64,000 nt of DNA, from the NCBI GenBank assembly GCA_019239975.1, contig JAFAZE010000035.1, positions 1 to 64,000 of the forward strand, read 5' to 3'. Shown piece by piece: positions 21,503 through 55,894 of this stretch. A model generated the notes under the pieces. The model saw nothing but the letters and a program-made list of their open reading frames with translations. It was not told the DNA's origin and made no database searches. Position numbers and translations under genes: made by a program. Position 1 is the stretch's first letter, and each line of letters starts with the position of its first letter. This stretch comes from Streptosporangiaceae bacterium (GTDB lineage Bacteria > Actinomycetota > Actinomycetes > Streptosporangiales > Streptosporangiaceae).

Positions 21503-21529
21503 CCCCTTTTTGCCCAAGCGGCCCCTCAA

Positions 21530-22190
21530 CGGCCGTGGACCTGCAGCCGCACGGACCCGCAGCCGCCGCGGACCTGCAGCCGCCGCGGACCCGCAGTCGC
21601 TGCGGACCCGCAGCCGCCGCGGACCCGCAAATGCCCTGGACCCGGCAGATGCCTCTGGACGCGCAGATGCCCGTAGACTCGCGGACGCCCTGGACGCGCA
21701 GTCGCCCGTAGACTCGCGGACGCCCTGGACGCGCAGTCGCCCGCGGTCGCCCGTAGGCCCAGGCAATCGCCCGCAACCGCCGCATTCTCGTTTTTGCGTG
21801 CGAAACTGTTCGGCTTTCCGAACACAACAACACTCAATAGCAGGACAACACGCAATAACGGCGCTGGCCGCGCCGAGGTGGGACAGCGGGGACAGTGCAC
21901 CGGCGGACGGGGCAGGTGGGATTGGCAGACTGGGACGGTGGGTGAGCTGGGGGACGGCGCGCCAGGGCTGGGGACAGCGGGTGAGCTGGGGGGCGGTCCA
22001 GTTGGGACGGAGGTGAGCTGGGGACGCGGGCCAGCTGGGAACGGCTCGCCTGGCGGGGATGGGGGTGAGCTGGGACGCGGGCCAGCTGGGAACGGCGCGC
22101 CAGGCGGGGGCGGGGACGAGCTGGGGACAGCGGGTGAGTTGGGAACGGCGGGTGGGCTGGGGACAGCGGGTGCTGGGACGGCGGGGTTGG
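21530..22190. repeat. Two adjacent low-complexity tandem-repeat tracts
   Basis: No credible gene between the PadR promoter and the RecB-like gene. 21540-21640 repeats an ~18-bp unit (gcggacccgcagccgcc). 21661-21745 is a 35-bp unit repeated about 2.5 times (starts 21661, 21696, 21731). 21880-22190 is a G-rich plus-strand tract with repeated gggacagcgggtgagctg and gggccagctgggaacggc units. All frames read as repetitive peptides, so I call no coding sequence. Confidence 0.75.
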
Positions 22191-36825: not shown

Positions 36826-39315
36826 GTGGCGGAAATGTTTGACCAGCTCATGCGCCAGTCCTACGGTGATATGGCCATGACTGTGATGGCGGCGGGCCGG
36901 CGGGCGGGCAACCTTCCCGCCGAACTGACTAGTTTCGTGGGCCGTCGGCGTGAGGTGGCCGAGGTCAGACGTCTGCTGTCCGTGTCCCGGCTGGTTACGC
37001 TGACCGGCGTCGGAGGCGTCGGGAAGACCAGGCTGGCCCTGCGGGCCGCCGTGGAGTTCCGCCGCGCGTTCGACGAAACCTGGCTGGTCGACCTGGCGGG
37101 CCTGATCGATCCCTCGCTCGTGGTCCCGACGGTCGCCGCGACCGTCGGGCTGTGCGATCAGTCCGAGCGCCCGCCGCTGCCGGTCTTGTCCGACTTTCTC
37201 GCCCCCAAGCGGATGCTGCTGGTGCTGGACAACTGCGAGCACCTGCTCGACGCGTGCGCCGAGCTGGCCGACGCGCTGCTGCGGGCCGCACCTGAGTTGC
37301 GGATCCTGGCGACCAGCAGGCAGTCGCTGCGTATCGAGGGCGAGTTCACGATGGCGATAGCGCCGCTGCCGGTGCCGGCGGGGGACCAGCCGCCGCTGTC
37401 GCCGGAGGCGCTCGGCCAGTACGAGGCGGTCAGCCTGTTCGCCGACCGGGCTGCGGCGGTGCTCCCCGGGTTCATACTGGACGGCAGCAACGCGATGGCG
37501 GTCGCCAGGCTCTGCCGGCAGCTGGACGGCATACCGCTGGCCATCGAGCTGGCGGCGGTGCGCCTGCGGGCGCTGTCGGTGGGCGAGATCGAGGAACGTC
37601 TCGGTGACCGTTACGGGCTGCTCACCGGCGGCAGCAGGGCCGCGCTGCCCCGCCAGCGGACCCTGCGCGCCCTGGTCGACTGGAGCTTCAGCCTGCTCTC
37701 GACCGCCGAACGGCATCTGTGGGCACGGCTGTCGGTGTTCGCCGGGGATTTCGGCCTCGATGCCGTCGAGGGGACGTGCGCGGGCGAGGGCATCTCCGCC
37801 GATGAGCTGCCGGATCTTCTCGCCGACCTGGTCGACAAGTCGCTGCTGCTCCGCCACGAGCACCTCGGCGAGGGCCGGTACCGGCTGCTGGAGACCCTCC
37901 GCCAGTTCGGCCAGGAGAAGCTCAGCGAGTACGGCCAGCGGGAGCTGATGCTGTCCCGGCACCGGGACTGGTACCAGCGCCTGGCCGAGCAGGCGCTGGC
38001 CGAGTGGTTCGGGCCCCGGCAGGTCTCGTGGTTCAACCGCCTCCGGCTCGAGCGGGCCAACCTCCGGGCCGCTCTGGAGTACTGCCTCAGCGAGCCGGGC
38101 GAGGCCGAGACCGGGCTGCGGATGGCTTCGGTCCTGCTCCGGCCTTTCTGGCTGCCGAACGCCTTCTTCAGCGAGGGAAGGATGTGGCTGGCGCGCCTGC
38201 TGGAGAAGGTCACGGCCGGGACGGCCCGGGCGAAGGGGCTCTGCGCGAACGCCTGGCTTGCCCTCATGCAAGGCGACGCCGCGACCGCGCTGTCCATGCT
38301 CGAGGAGGGTGGCCGGCTCGCAGACCAGCTGGACGACCCGGCGAGCAGCGCCTGCGTCCTTTACCTGTCCGGGCTGGCCGCGCTGTACCTCAAGGATGAG
38401 CCGGCGGGGACGCGGCTGCTGCGGGAGGCGGTGGACAGCCACACTCGGATCGGCGACCCGTACGGCATCGCGATGTCATCGGTCGCGCTCGCGGTGTCTC
38501 TCGGCGAACAGGGCGACAGCGGCCAGGCGGTGGCGCTGTGCGAGCGGAGCCTGGCGCTGACCGCGAGCCGGGCCGAGACCTGGTGCCGGAGCTACGCACT
38601 GCGCACGCTCGCCATCGAGACGTGGCACCGGGGCGAAAGCGCCCTGGCGGCCTCGCTGGCGCGCGAAGGGCTGCTGGCGAGCCGCACGTTCGACGACCGG
38701 TTCGGCATGGCCGTTGACGTCGATGTCCTGGGATGGGTCGCGGCTGGGCCTGCCGGAGGCAACCCACGGCGCGCCGCGCTGCTGATGGGCGCCGCGGAAG
38801 CCATCGCCCGCACCGTCGGTGCGTCCAGGCTCCGTATCGGCATATACGTCGGTCACCACGAGCGCTGCCGGGCACGCGTCAAGGCCGCGCTGGGCAGCCA
38901 GGACTTCGCCAGGGCCCTCGCCGACGGCGCGCGGCTCACCCTGGAGCAAGCCGTCGCCGAGGCGCTGGCGGACGCAACCGGCACGTCGGCCTCCCTGACC
39001 GCAGCCTCCCCCCCGACGCCAGGGTCTGCGTCGTCCGCTTCGCCTCCGCGGCCGTCTTCGCCTCCCGGGCCGTCTTCGCCTCCGGGGCCCTCTCTAACTC
39101 CAGAGCCCTCTCCGACCCCGCCGTCCCCTCTCACACGACGGGAGACGGAGATCGCGGAACTGGTCGCGGGCGGCCTGAGCAACAAGGCGATCGCCGCCAC
39201 CCTGGTGATATCCCAGCGCACCGCGGAAGGCCACGTGGAGCGCATCCTGTCCAAGCTCGGCTTCACCTCGCGCGCCCAGATCGCCGCCTGGGTCACCGCC
39301 CGCAAAAACGGCTGA
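36826..39315 (+). CDS. Large ATP-binding LuxR-family transcriptional regulator
   Basis: 829 aa. NB-ARC-like ATPase with Walker A GVGGVGKT (61-68) and Walker B 'MLLVLDNCEHLL', followed by the winged-helix 'LPRQRTLRALVDWSFSLL' typical of AfsR/MalT-like regulators. A TPR-like helical region covers about 400-720. A Ser/Pro repeat linker (about 725-765) precedes a C-terminal LuxR HTH ('LTRRETEIAELVAGGLSNKAI'). It is probably a signal-dependent activator; ligand and targets are unknown. It diverges from fabD across ~130 bp, so it might act on the fatty-acid operon, but that is only positional. GTG 36826; ATG 36835 is possible. Confidence 0.88.
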   Translation: MAEMFDQLMRQSYGDMAMTVMAAGRRAGNLPAELTSFVGRRREVAEVRRLLSVSRLVTLTGVGGVGKTRLALRAAVEFRRAFDETWLVDLAGLIDPSLVVPTVAATVGLCDQSERPPLPVLSDFLAPKRMLLVLDNCEHLLDACAELADALLRAAPELRILATSRQSLRIEGEFTMAIAPLPVPAGDQPPLSPEALGQYEAVSLFADRAAAVLPGFILDGSNAMAVARLCRQLDGIPLAIELAAVRLRALSVGEIEERLGDRYGLLTGGSRAALPRQRTLRALVDWSFSLLSTAERHLWARLSVFAGDFGLDAVEGTCAGEGISADELPDLLADLVDKSLLLRHEHLGEGRYRLLETLRQFGQEKLSEYGQRELMLSRHRDWYQRLAEQALAEWFGPRQVSWFNRLRLERANLRAALEYCLSEPGEAETGLRMASVLLRPFWLPNAFFSEGRMWLARLLEKVTAGTARAKGLCANAWLALMQGDAATALSMLEEGGRLADQLDDPASSACVLYLSGLAALYLKDEPAGTRLLREAVDSHTRIGDPYGIAMSSVALAVSLGEQGDSGQAVALCERSLALTASRAETWCRSYALRTLAIETWHRGESALAASLAREGLLASRTFDDRFGMAVDVDVLGWVAAGPAGGNPRRAALLMGAAEAIARTVGASRLRIGIYVGHHERCRARVKAALGSQDFARALADGARLTLEQAVAEALADATGTSASLTAASPPTPGSASSASPPRPSSPPGPSSPPGPSLTPEPSPTPPSPLTRRETEIAELVAGGLSNKAIAATLVISQRTAEGHVERILSKLGFTSRAQIAAWVTARKNG

Positions 39316-39356
39316 TCTCACCTGACCGCCAGGTAGAAGCCGGTGGCCGCACCATA

Positions 39357-39371
39357 TACCCTGTACGGGTA
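39357..39371. promoter_or_regulatory. CsoR-type operator before the permease
   Basis: TACCC-TGTAC-GGGTA, a perfect 5-bp-arm dyad 28 bp before the permease start, of the TACCC-N5-GGGTA type bound by copper-sensing CsoR repressors. The same pattern (TACCC-TGCTG-GGGTA) precedes csoR at 40856-40870. Confidence 0.7.
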
Positions 39372-39399
39372 CGGGGTTACTGTCCACCCGGAGGGTTAG

Positions 39400-40578
39400 G
39401 TGAGCGAGATGCACGCGGTCACGCACGCGCTGTCCATCGCCGGGTCGATGACATGGCAGATCACCTGGGCGCTCATACTGGGGTTCTTCCTCGCGGCGAT
39501 CGTGGAGGCCGTGGTCCGCAAGTCCACGATCGTCCGGCTGCTTGGCGACGCCCGGCCGCGCACGCTCGCGGTCGCCGCGGGGCTCGGTGCCGCGTCGTCG
39601 TCCTGCTCCTACGCGGCAGTCGCACTCGCCCGCGCACTGTTCCGCAAGGGCGCGAACTTCACCGCGGCGATGGCGTTCGAGATCGCCTCCACGAACCTGG
39701 TGATCGAGCTCGGCCTCATCCTGGCGCTGCTGATGGGCTGGCAGTTCACGCTCGCCGAGTTCACCGGCGGCCCGATCATGATCGTCATCATGGCCGTGCT
39801 GTTCCGCCTCTTCCTTGGCGAGCGGCTGCTGCGCGGGGCGCGCCAGCAGGCCGACCGTGGCCTAGCGGGGGCGATGGAGGGCCACGCCGCGATGGACATG
39901 TCCATCGGGCGGCAGGGATCGTTCGCGCGGCGGCTGCTCTCCGGCGAGGGCTTCACCTCGGTCAGCCACGTCTTCGTGATGGAGTGGGCCGCGATCCTCC
40001 GCGACCTGGTGGTTGGCTTGCTCGCCGCTGGGGCGATCGCCGCGTGGGTGCCGGACAGCTTCTGGCGGGCGTTCTTCTTCACCGGGCACCCGCTGGCCGC
40101 GAAGCTGTGGGGGCCGCTGATCGGCCCCCTGGTGGCGGTGATCTCGTTTGTCTGCTCGATCGGGAACGTGCCGCTGGCCGTCGTGCTGTGGAAGGGCGGG
40201 ATCAGCTTCGGCGGCGTGGTCGCGTTCATCTTCGCGGACCTGATCATCGCACCGATCCTGAACATCTACCGCAAGTACTACGGCGGCCGGATGGCGCTGT
40301 TCATCCTGGCAGCCTTCTACCTGGCGATGGCCGCGGCCGGATACGTCATAGAGCTCGTTTTCGGCGGTCTCGGGCTCGTGCCCGGCAAGGCGAGCGCGAA
40401 GATACCCGACCAGGGCGTCAGCCTGGACTACACCACCTGGCTCAACATCGTCTTCCTGATCCTGGCCGGCGTTCTGATCATCCGGTTCGTGCGCACGGGA
40501 GGCGCGGCGATGCTGCGCATGATGGCCGGCGCGCCCGAGCCGGCGGACGCCGCCGGCGGCCACGCGCATAGCCGGTGA
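39400..40578 (+). CDS. UPF0718/YraQ-like permease, probable copper-linked metal efflux
   Basis: 392 aa with about eight to ten membrane helices. The duplicated permease repeats carry Cys/Ser motifs 'GAASSSCSYAAVAL' and 'SFVCSIGNVPLAVVLW', typical of the DUF318/SO_0444-type transporters. Homologues have been linked to copper, zinc or organo-arsenical efflux. The CsoR-type operator upstream and csoR/copZ downstream favour copper here. GTG 39400 follows ggagg by 5 nt. The C-terminus is His-containing ('GGHAHSR'). Confidence 0.85.
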   Translation: MSEMHAVTHALSIAGSMTWQITWALILGFFLAAIVEAVVRKSTIVRLLGDARPRTLAVAAGLGAASSSCSYAAVALARALFRKGANFTAAMAFEIASTNLVIELGLILALLMGWQFTLAEFTGGPIMIVIMAVLFRLFLGERLLRGARQQADRGLAGAMEGHAAMDMSIGRQGSFARRLLSGEGFTSVSHVFVMEWAAILRDLVVGLLAAGAIAAWVPDSFWRAFFFTGHPLAAKLWGPLIGPLVAVISFVCSIGNVPLAVVLWKGGISFGGVVAFIFADLIIAPILNIYRKYYGGRMALFILAAFYLAMAAAGYVIELVFGGLGLVPGKASAKIPDQGVSLDYTTWLNIVFLILAGVLIIRFVRTGGAAMLRMMAGAPEPADAAGGHAHSR

Positions 40579-40586
40579 CTTCGCCC

Positions 40587-40877
40587 ATACCGTGCTGGGT
40601 GCGGGCGCGTATAGCCCGTTCCCTCCTCAATACCCTGCTGGGGTGCGGGCGCGCATAGCCGGTGACTTCGCCCATACCGTGCGAGGGTGCGGCCACGCGC
40701 ATAGCCGGTGACTTCCTCCATACCGTGCTGGGGTGCGGGCGCGCATAGCCGGTGACTTCGTCCATACCGTGCGAGGGTGCGGCCACGCGCATAGCCGGTG
40801 ACTTCGTCCATACCGTGCTGGGGTGCGGGCGCGGGCATAATCGTCCCTTCCTCCATACCCTGCTGGGGTACGGTATG
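40587..40877. repeat. Tandem array of seven CsoR-operator-like units
   Basis: Units start at 40587, 40630, 40674, 40720, 40764, 40810 and 40855, spacing 43-46 bp. Each begins ATACC and contains a TACC(C/G)-N5-GGGT(A/G) dyad. Units alternate between a 44-bp form (tgctggggtgcggg) and a 46-bp form (tgcgagggtgcggcca), so 2+3 and 4+5 form a 90-bp higher-order repeat. The last unit (40856-40870) has the perfect TACCC-TGCTG-GGGTA and lies 36 bp before csoR. The whole 328-bp gap between permease and csoR is this array. Confidence 0.85.
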
Positions 40878-40906
40878 TTAGAAGAGGGGGAGAGCGGAGA
40901 GGTGAC

Positions 40907-41188
40907 GTGTACGGGTACGCGCCGAACAGGGAGGACTACCTCAAGCGGCTGCGCCGGATCGAGGGACAGGTACGCGGGCTGCAGAAGATGGTGGAGGAGG
41001 ACAAGTACTGCATAGATATCCTGACCCAGGTGTCGGCCGCCACCAGGGCGCTGCAGTCGGTCGCGCTGGGTCTGATGGAAGACCACCTGGGGCACTGCGT
41101 CACTCAGGCGGCCGCCGAGGGCGGCGAGGTCGCGGCGATGAAGGTTCGCGAGGCGTCTGAGGCGATCGCCCGCTTGGTGAAGTCCTGA
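40907..41188 (+). CDS. csoR: Copper-sensing transcriptional repressor CsoR
   Basis: 93 aa, all-helical metal-sensitive repressor. The Cu(I) ligand set C35 ('DKYCIDILTQ'), H60 and C64 ('DHLGHCV') is complete, and the N-terminal DNA-contact arginines 'KRLRRIEGQVRG' are present. It should release TACCC-N5-GGGTA operators when Cu(I) binds. GTG 40907 with ggagagg upstream. The copZ gene follows 22 bp downstream. Confidence 0.93.
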   Translation: MYGYAPNREDYLKRLRRIEGQVRGLQKMVEEDKYCIDILTQVSAATRALQSVALGLMEDHLGHCVTQAAAEGGEVAAMKVREASEAIARLVKS

Positions 41189-41210
41189 CAACCACGACAG
41201 AAGGCGACTG

Positions 41211-41432
41211 ATGACATCGGCGACCTACCACGTCACCGGGATGACATGCGAGCACTGCGTGCACGCGGTTACCGGGGAGCTGAAGAACCTGGCGGGCGTC
41301 ACCGGCGTAACCGTCGATCTTGTCCCGGAGGGCCGCTCCGCTGTGACCGTCACCAGCGAGGCGCCGCTGCCGTCGGCGGCGGTCGCGGACGCCCTCGACG
41401 AGGCCGGTGGCTACCGGCTCGCGGGGAACTGA
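41211..41432 (+). CDS. copZ: CopZ-like heavy-metal-associated (HMA) domain protein
   Basis: 73 aa ferredoxin-like HMA fold. The MTCEHC motif supplies Cu(I) ligands C13 and C16. It is a cytoplasmic copper chaperone that normally hands Cu(I) to a CopA ATPase or to CsoR. Ribosome site 'gaaggcg' before ATG 41211. Only a remnant of copA follows, so the chaperone's normal target is missing at this locus. Confidence 0.92.
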   Translation: MTSATYHVTGMTCEHCVHAVTGELKNLAGVTGVTVDLVPEGRSAVTVTSEAPLPSAAVADALDEAGGYRLAGN

Positions 41433-44960: not shown

Positions 44961-45930
44961 TCCCAGTGGCGCTCTGGTCACGGCACAAATAAATATCCGG
45001 CCCGCGCCGCACTGCCGCGCAGCCCTGCACGAGCGCCCGTAACCGTTGCGCCTCAAAACCACCCGAGCGCAGCACCGCTGCGCCTCACACTCCGTGCCCT
45101 GCATCGCCGCGGCCCCACGCCGCCTGAGACCTGCATCGTTGCGCCCGCCGGCGTTTGAGCACCGCTTGCGCCTCATACTCCGTGCCCTGCATCGCCGCGG
45201 CCCCACGCCCCCTGAGTCCTGCATCGTTGCGCCCGCCGGCGTTTGAGCACCGCTTGCGCCTCACACTCCGTGCCTGCACCGCTGCGCCTCACCCTGCCCG
45301 AGCCCAGTACCGTTGCGCCTCCGGTCGCTTGAGCCCAGAAAGAGTTATGGCGCCTCAAGCTGCGCAATGTCCTCAGAGACTTCATCGCCCCCTCAGCCAC
45401 AGAAGCCGCAAACGCCATAATGCCCGCAAAGCATCCAACAGTCTCAGGAGTTTGACATCACCTGAGTCCCTTGCACCGCACCGGCACCGTGCACCCTCTT
45501 CGTGGAAACGTAGGGGTCGTATACGGCCCGTAACTACCACGATCATGAAATAGGCCAGCAGCCAGCGAGGCGGGTCACTGGTGAGCGGGGCCCCAGCTGC
45601 TACCGGCTCAGGGCGTGCATCACCCCACAAGTCACGAGGACCCCACTGGCACAATACCCGGCCGCGCTCCTGGGCAACGACGGTGATGAATCGCGAGAAT
45701 GGCGGCTGGCTGGCGCTAGGGGTCTGCGGTGCGCTGGGGTCTGCGGGGCGTTAGGGTCTGCGGGGCGTTAGGTGTCTGGGGTGCGCTAAGGGTCTGCGGT
45801 GCGCTAAAGGTCTGCGGTGCGCTAAAGGTCTGCAGGGCGCTAGGATTCTGCAGGGCGCTGAGGTCTGCGGTGCGCTAAGAGGTCTGCAGGGCGCTGAGGT
45901 CTGCGGTGCGCTGGGGCTACAGGACTGGGG
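44961..45930. repeat. Repeat island without genes
   Basis: 970 bp with no credible gene. 45080-45167 and 45168-45255 are two 88-bp direct repeats differing at a few positions, followed by a partial third copy from 45256. A 51-bp element at 45500-45550 is shared with 55160-55210. 45710-45925 is about eleven degenerate copies of an 18-20-bp unit (ggtctgcggtgcgcta). The last tract ends just inside the 3' flank of the PucR gene. Confidence 0.8.
45500..45550 (-). repeat. 51-bp dispersed element, copy A
   Basis: Read on the minus strand it begins tttcatgatcg and ends gtttccacga, the same ends and exact length as 55160-55210; 37 of 51 positions agree without gaps. It lies in a gene-free repeat island. 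The function is unknown. Confidence 0.65.
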
Positions 45931-54820: not shown

Positions 54821-55159
54821 CCGCCCCGCCCCGTCGTGCCCCGCGCCCAGCGTCCCGCGCCCCGCACCCGCCCGCGCCCCAGCGTGCCCCGTACCCAGCG
54901 TCCCGCGCCCCGCACCCGCCCGCGCTCCAGCGTGCCCTGCGTCGGCCGACGTCATTGGCACCGACGGCACCGTCGGTCCCACAGCCACCCCAGGTATCGC
55001 ACTGACCCGCACGTCCGCAGCGGAGGCGCCTCCGCATCGGCCCGCAACGGCCTGCGTGGTCTGTGCCCCCTTCCTCTGGCCGCCCACCCCCCGCCGTCGG
55101 CCCCCAAAACCCCCTCATACGCCCCAGATGCCCGATTCGCCCCACTCGCTAAGGCGGCG
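54821..55159. repeat. GC-rich spacer with duplicated segment
   Basis: A ~48-bp segment (cccagcgtcccgcgccccgc and its continuation) occurs twice in 54841-54940. The rest up to 55159 is low-complexity GC-rich DNA with no supported gene. Confidence 0.6.
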
Positions 55160-55210
55160 TTTCATGATCGCGGAATCGGCGGGTCGTGGGTGACACCTTT
55201 GTTTCCACGA
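55160..55210 (+). repeat. 51-bp dispersed element, copy B
   Basis: Starts tttcatgatcg and ends gtttccacga; the same length as copy A at 45500-45550 (minus strand), 37/51 identical, with fully conserved ends. Like copy A it sits in a ~1-kb gene-free island beside tandem repeats. Confidence 0.65.
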
Positions 55211-55309
55211 CACCGTTACCGGCTGGTAGGCCGTGGAAATTAGGGGTCACGGGCACATGGCGCTCTTGTCACATCGGACACCCCGTTCTCTTCGTGCCTA
55301 TTTGCCCCA

Positions 55310-55790
55310 CCCCGGCTGGGCCGCTGGCCAACGGCTTGCCTCATCCCGGCTGGGTCGGCGGCCGGTGGCTTGTCCCATCCTGGCTGGGCGGCTGGCCGGT
55401 GGCTTGTCCCACTCCGGCTGGGCCGCTGGCTAACGGCTTGCCTCATCCCGGCTGGGCCGCTGGCCGACGGCTTGCCTCATCCCGGCTGGGCCGGCGGCCG
55501 GTGGCTTGTTCCATCTTGGCTGGGCCGCCGGCCGACGGCTTGTCCCATCCCCGGCCGGGGCGGCGGCCGACGGCTTGCCTCATCCCCGCCGGGCCGCTGG
55601 CCGGTGGCTTGTCCCACCCCCGGCCTGGCCGCCGGCCGACGGCTTGTCCCATCCCCCGGGGCGGCGGCCGACGGCTTGTCCCATCCCCGGCCGGGCCGCT
55701 GGCCGGTGGCTTGTCCCACCCCCGGCCGGGGCGTCGACCGACGGCTTGCCCACCCCCGGCCGGGGCGCCGGCCGGTGGCTTGCCCCACCC
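55310..55790. repeat. Minisatellite of about 14 units of 33-36 bp
   Basis: Imperfect tandem repeat with a core of ggcttgtcccatcccggctg then ggccgctggccgac; most units are 36 bp. It stays open in several frames because of the unit length, but the frames give only Pro/Gly/Ala repeats with no ribosome site, so I do not call a gene. It ends ~100 bp before the CBS gene. Confidence 0.85.
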
Positions 55791-55894
55791 CTCACCCTCT
55801 ATGGCCGTCGGCCGGCGGGTTTGGGCTTGGGTTTAGCACGTGCGGGGGCTGGTAGCGAGACGGGCGGGGGAGACGCGAAGCGAGGAGGCATCTC

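Follow-up and report, generated by a model that had tools for sequence, protein, structure and literature searches.

A tandem array of CsoR-operator-like units upstream of an actinobacterial csoR gene is probably a minisatellite beside one working operator

Introduction

In the stretch of DNA analysed here (64,000 nucleotides of a Streptosporangiaceae genome, hereafter the window), seven tandem units of 43–47 bp occupy positions 40562–40876, between a permease gene and csoR, and every one of them holds a TACC...GGT(A/G) element resembling the operator of the copper-sensing repressor CsoR. This arrangement raises the question of whether the copies act together in copper regulation, by titrating the repressor, spreading it along the DNA or sharpening the response, or whether they are a minisatellite that grew from one operator; the original prediction for this locus had put forward both readings. 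Minisatellites are tandem repeats of 10–100 bp, and at other CsoR loci it is established that the repressor acts without copper and is released by it. In copper-type CsoR proteins, the ligands are spaced Cys-x24-His-x3-Cys.

Results

Genes flanking the array

The features of the locus are collected in Table 1. The permease scored 50.6 bits against the NCBIfam model for Cu/Zn efflux SO_0444, far under its cut-off of 300. Downstream of the array, the csoR product belongs to the CsoR/RcnR family (PF02583, 104.8 bits against a cut-off of 22.8) and is RicR-like, though under the cut-off of that model (NCBIfam NF052430, 149.2 bits against 175). Reading of the sequence and its alignment to 4adz, the S. 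lividans CsoR that is its best match among solved structures, place it with the copper-type proteins, with C35, H60 and C64 as ligands, an RLXR motif at R14–R17, and Q41. The alignment also retains the equivalents of S. lividans Q81 and R129, and R132 is replaced by lysine, such that four of the five residues mutated in PMC3902906 are kept, given an inferred offset of 3 between the 4adz chain and the residue numbering of that paper. Beyond copZ, an ORF at 41407–41889 matches only the last 83 of 542 positions of the copper-ATPase family and, judged from this, is likely a remnant of a copper ATPase; a copper ATPase scoring above the cut-off is on contig C150.

Table 1. Coordinates of features at the csoR locus (positions within the window)
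Feature	Position	Strand	Basis or remark
Perfect dyad TACCCTGTACGGGTA, predicted CsoR operator of the permease	39357..39371		motif match
ArsP_1 family permease, 392 aa	39400..40578	+	PF03773, E 2e-72; final codons and stop in unit 1
Unit 1	40562..40604	+	permease gene end; 14-nt element TACCGTGCTGGGTG at 40588
Unit 2	40605..40648	+	element TACCCTGCTGGGGTG at 40631; flank unlike units 3–6
Unit 3	40649..40694	+	element TACCGTGCGAGGGTG at 40675
Unit 4	40695..40738	+	element TACCGTGCTGGGGTG at 40721; 90-bp dimer with unit 3
Unit 5	40739..40784	+	element TACCGTGCGAGGGTG at 40765; 98% identical to unit 3
Unit 6	40785..40829	+	element TACCGTGCTGGGGTG at 40811; 96% identical to unit 4
Unit 7	40830..40876	+	sole complete dyad of the array, TACCCTGCTGGGGTA at 40856–40870; predicted csoR operator
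GGTATGTT, likely -10 region	40872..40879	+	directly 3' of the unit 7 dyad; function inferred; same string after the operator in relative L192
csoR, copper-sensing repressor by homology, 93 aa	40907..41188	+	PF02583, E 3.1e-30; 4adz, E 1.3e-32
copZ-like HMA protein, 73 aa	41211..41432	+	PF00403, E 5.9e-10

The units are alike along their full length

Tandem Repeats Finder (TRF) described the array as 7.0 copies of a 46-bp period (80% matches, 40563–40873) and, at a second level, as 3.0 copies of a 90-bp period (92%, 40563–40833). The latter reflects dimers, units 3+4 and units 5+6 being near copies of each other, and successive elements are spaced 43, 44, 46, 44, 46, and 45 bp apart. Units 1 and 3–6 share 85–98% identity over their whole length, the non-operator part included. 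Head-to-tail copies of a unit of 10–100 bp, alike along the full unit, are what defines a minisatellite. The seven units that had been described as filling the gap between permease and csoR are real, except that the 5' edge, at 40562/40563, lies inside the permease ORF, whose stop codon is at 40576–40578. The longest unit is 47 bp. Unit 1 therefore consists in part of the last permease codons, and the gene-end string GGCCACGCGCATAGCCGGTGACTTC was found again, by reading the sequence, at units 4 and 6. The pattern TACC(C/G)-N5-GGGT(A/G), originally ascribed to each unit, is present in six of the seven, where the elements are 15 nt long; unit 1 has N4 in place of N5.

Only unit 7 carries a complete dyad

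The perfect TACCC-N5-GGGTA that had been reported for the final unit was confirmed, as was the same dyad at the permease promoter. The S. lividans repressor binds TAC-N9-GTA as two tetramers (Tan et al. 2013, PMC3902906), and in that study binding measured by ITC was lost when G, T or A was swapped for its complement at both dyad ends and was absent for a half site. Among the seven array sites and the permease promoter site, the TAC-N9-GTA inverted repeat of type 2 CsoR operators is found at unit 7 and at the permease site, whereas units 1–6 all end in GTG, and unit 1 is in addition one base short. Because an A-to-G change at one end only lies outside the duplex set of PMC3902906, weak binding of CsoR at units 1–6 is possible. 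Unit 7 is also the only one in which TAC...GTA is followed by GGTATGTT; no similar string occurs in the internal units. A scan for consensus sigma-70 promoters found none, including over GGTATGTT.

Counts of the motif were examined in the window and genome-wide. Allowing at most one mismatch, TACCN7GGTA has 18 matches in the window where 6.4 would be expected, an excess that is not independent evidence because six of the matches are copies of one array unit. The strict form TACCCN5GGGTA occurs at three places in the 6.41-Mb genome (reversed control, one), of which two belong to this locus (unit 7, permease site) and the third lies inside a 637-aa ORF; for the looser TACCSN5SGGTR, 82 + 68 matches compare with 41 + 33 in the reversed control. 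With the strict form present only three times, a wider regulon that the array might titrate was rejected.

Relatives typically have a single site

A search for the CsoR protein in 297 genomes of the family, the present one included and no other of its genus among them, returned a match in 291. We compared csoR upstream regions from 69 relatives, one per genome, comprising 29 loci and 40 more from the same search, the latter taken with best scores first and some left out. Within 400 bp upstream of csoR, strict TACC-N7-GGTA occurred once in 41 regions, twice in two, not at all in 26, and three or more times in none; because 26 of these 69 promoters are without a strict site, the motif is not shared by the whole family. 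Where TACC-N7-GG lay within 110 bp of csoR (n = 47 matches), the following letters were TA in 43, CG in two, TG in one, and CA in one. Relatives L192 and L193 share the operator TACCCTGCGGGGGTA, which differs from the unit 7 dyad by a single letter and is followed by GGTATGTT in the former and by GGTATGGT in the latter.

Permease loci from 32 relatives contained strict TACC-N7-GGTA somewhere in 13 cases, and in all 32 the number of TACC-N6-8-GGT(A/G) sites on the strand that was read never exceeded two. In a chosen set of 13 permease loci (L023, L024, L168–L174, L178–L180, and L184), several of them encoding His-rich tails, a CsoR-type site lay at most 120 bp upstream of the gene in 11, a proportion that is not unbiased, as 11 loci had been picked for an already visible site. 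On this sequence pattern, the ArsP_1 permease and its relatives are possibly copper-linked. One of these loci, L023, encodes a permease 84% identical to the present one and carries a perfect TACCCTAGGGGGGTA that begins 6 nt beyond the stop codon of that gene, followed by copZ. This is where unit 1 lies in our array, its element starting 10 nt after the stop, and the comparison points to a pre-existing operator at the permease gene end as the source of the array. In the other 12 chosen relatives, the 330 bp downstream of the permease gene contained no strict site.

Minisatellites are common in the window

We counted tandem repeats with a period of at least 25, at least three copies, and a length of at least 150 bp, finding five in the 64-kb window, seven in 400 kb of the same genome (20 stretches), and two in 400 kb from a single contig of relative G208. 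Among arrays scoring at least 150, 8/9 in the window and 6/13 in the 400 kb lay outside long high-GC3 ORFs or overlapped them by no more than 5%. This genome, and the window especially, makes such repeats often. Long minisatellites fill the intergenic gaps 21518–22185, 45071–45916, and 54821–55791, and those at 22004–22150, 45713–45916, and 54821–54941 lie 41, 15, and 1 bp, respectively, from the 3' end of a long ORF.

Multi-site clusters elsewhere are of another kind

Three TACCSN5SGGTR sites at gaps of 15–45 bp were found in five of 297 family genomes and five of 394 class genomes, the present genome and G004 appearing in both searches. An array of the present type was seen only in the present genome among the 297. 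The other family matches comprised repeats of different sequence with no csoR found in the locus (G073 and G004), three different sites, likewise with no csoR found in the locus (G143), and a non-repeat triple site adjoined by csoR and copZ (G223). The class matches G599, G476, and G640 were not repeats; csoR and copZ lie near the first and a weak copZ near the third, and neither gene was found at G476.

A scan of 84,980 species genomes for triple sites returned at least 117 stretches. Calling a tandem repeat wherever one TRF row with a score of at least 50 spanned the cluster, we obtained 48 repeats and 69 non-repeats among the 117 matches listed, some of the 69 being plainly other things, such as certain Acidobacteria repeats. 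The fetched loci, at most 8 kb, contained csoR in 21 of the 117 listed, up to several kb away, and all 21 belong to the 69 non-repeats; csoR was found beside none of the 48 tandem-repeat stretches. None of the matches listed was thus found to combine a repeat array with csoR as the present locus does, in a collection that may omit the present genome and its near kin. Triple complete, non-repeat sites do adjoin csoR in Micromonospora, Kribbella, and others among these matches, and the statement that known CsoR loci have one operator was accordingly too strong. Triple sites next to csoR with irregular spacing were noted at 15 loci, and Streptomyces loci such as L056 and L093 have sites spaced 47–48/35 beside a heavy-metal ATPase or HMA protein. 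Nine ORFs flanking six such loci (two of them from Streptomyces) encoded two heavy-metal ATPases, one HMA protein, two MFS transporters, one below-cut-off YtkA, and three products of no family.

Repeats containing dyads were also met in other settings. One of the 48 tandem repeats, in Streptomyces sp. CB01373, has 46-bp units, as here, but with TACCGGACGACGGTG elements, and the adjacent ORF, read by eye only, is FAD-monooxygenase-like; this repeat beside a non-csoR ORF indicates that dyads in minisatellites also arise without CsoR. The Acidobacteria MAG JALOKP01 carries a dispersed repeat family in which the dyad TACCGACTTACGGTA, in either orientation, occurs three times 37–57 bp apart on each of six contigs. 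At a further locus (L159, 1680–2002), eight TACCCAAAATGGGTA-like palindromes form a tandem array with exact 44-bp spacing, and csoR was not found in the locus.

Do the internal sites act?

If the array were a functional decoy or cooperative structure, its six TAC/GTG sites would bind CsoR weakly, and the pool of tetramers kept beside the promoter would reduce the amount of free repressor or make its release by copper sharper. We reasoned from the aligned units, counting cells that carry a minority letter and leaving out columns with gaps in two or more units; the cells counted are not independent of one another. Across all seven units, minority cells made up 8/105 in the 15 operator columns and 20/203 outside them (p = 0.68; 8/105 against 29/231 with gapped columns included), and in units 1–6 the counts were 6/90 and 13/174 (p = 1.0). 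Conservation of the operator copies therefore does not significantly exceed that of their flanks. Over all seven units, TACC and GGT are nearly invariant, with one minority cell in 49 against 20/203 outside (p = 0.09), a slight lean towards conservation of this core that favours the decoy reading; as a whole, the counts give no clear support for selection on the internal sites. Units 2 and 7 agree at 14 of 15 operator positions and 21 of 29 outside, a pattern that would fit some selection on site 2.

Two further observations favour a decoy: S. lividans copZA1, which has external GTA dyads, shows an extra high-affinity binding mode (PMC3902906), and the triple complete dyads near copper genes in other actinobacteria indicate that multi-site promoters are not foreign to CsoR. 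Those clusters, however, consist of complete dyads and are not repeats, whereas the GTA end is missing from all six internal sites here, the TG in its place being found in 1/47 of the matches in relatives. Nor do the sites share one helical face, with offsets from unit 7 of 4.3, 8.7, 12.9, 17.2, 21.4, and 25.5 turns at 10.5 bp per turn. On balance, we regard a decoy or cooperative array as unlikely. The titration, spreading, or sharpening by degenerate sites that had been proposed gained no positive evidence, six of the seven sites breaking the TAC/GTA dyad that the S. lividans CsoR requires (PMC3902906). Slightly less probable still is a working CsoR sponge, in which six low-affinity sites, born by slippage from one operator, would hold tetramers beside one strong site and the number of units would tune the copper threshold; were it true, the copper response could shift by gain or loss of units.

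The genome is in 176 contigs, and 90-bp dimers that are 96–98% identical unit for unit are a hard case for short reads, such that the true number of units could differ from seven. Against this, the units differ from one another at several places, with units 1, 2, and 7 standing clearly apart; the locus therefore likely does contain a repeat of some length, and we give an assembly effect little credence. Least probable is an insulator or terminator that blocks permease transcripts and leaves csoR to its own promoter, for although the array fills the gap between co-directional genes that each have a perfect dyad upstream, RNA from 40563–40906 folds no better than its shuffles (z = 0.03, 47/100 at least as good) and the sole terminator-like site in 39300–41300 lies at 40211, inside the permease gene, with none in the array. 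An RNA structure or attenuator within the array was rejected on the same z score.

Discussion

We conclude, with a probability of roughly three in four, that the array is a minisatellite, grown most likely by tandem duplication of a segment containing the permease end and a CsoR operator, and that unit 7 alone is predicted to bind CsoR and to control csoR-copZ. The process was probably ordinary repeat expansion beside one working site. Between the two readings first offered for this locus, growth of a minisatellite from one operator is the better supported: identity of 85–98% extends over whole units, the operator is not significantly better conserved than the remaining columns, the permease end forms part of a unit, and no relative examined has the array.

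The ancestral order would have been permease, operator, and then csoR or copZ. A copy that had already lost its GTA end may then have been duplicated until it filled the interval, and the minisatellite would thereby have widened the gap between permease and csoR, leaving one working operator next to csoR. By analogy with other CsoR loci, copper-free CsoR would repress from unit 7 and copper would release it. The effect of the six internal sites would be small, because little or no CsoR binding is expected at them and none is accompanied by GGTATGTT.

The locus illustrates how a repeat can copy a regulatory site into something that looks like an operator array, the published binding rule and the relatives together singling out one likely working site. 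Were the internal sites to bind CsoR after all, the number of repeats would offer an easy means of tuning a metal response. For cooperative CsoR binding, the multi-site promoters with complete dyads found elsewhere are the better place to look, and the multi-operator CsoR-type promoter of other actinobacteria may deserve a study of its own. We found no tandem CsoR-site array in the literature, within a search whose coverage of subscription journals was limited.

Placed among known systems, the array shares with bacterial intergenic minisatellites its head-to-tail units, a unit dimer, and a position abutting a gene end; it differs in that a regulatory site happens to sit in each copy. The clusters of Micromonospora, Kribbella, and Streptomyces resemble it in having several CsoR-type sites, 33–60 bp apart, near csoR or a copZ- or heavy-metal-ATPase-like gene, but there the dyads are complete, sites and spacers are not copies of one another by TRF, and the spacing is irregular (for example, 47/36 and 50/37). 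The operators of S. lividans csoR, copZA1, and copZA2 (PMC3902906) are like unit 7 and the permease site in their TAC-N9-GTA dyad and C/G tracts, and the repressors of the two organisms belong to the same family. Those three are single operators, with outer overlapping GTA motifs at copZA1 and no tandem repeat there, whereas the present locus has seven tandem units, the first six of them without the GTA end.
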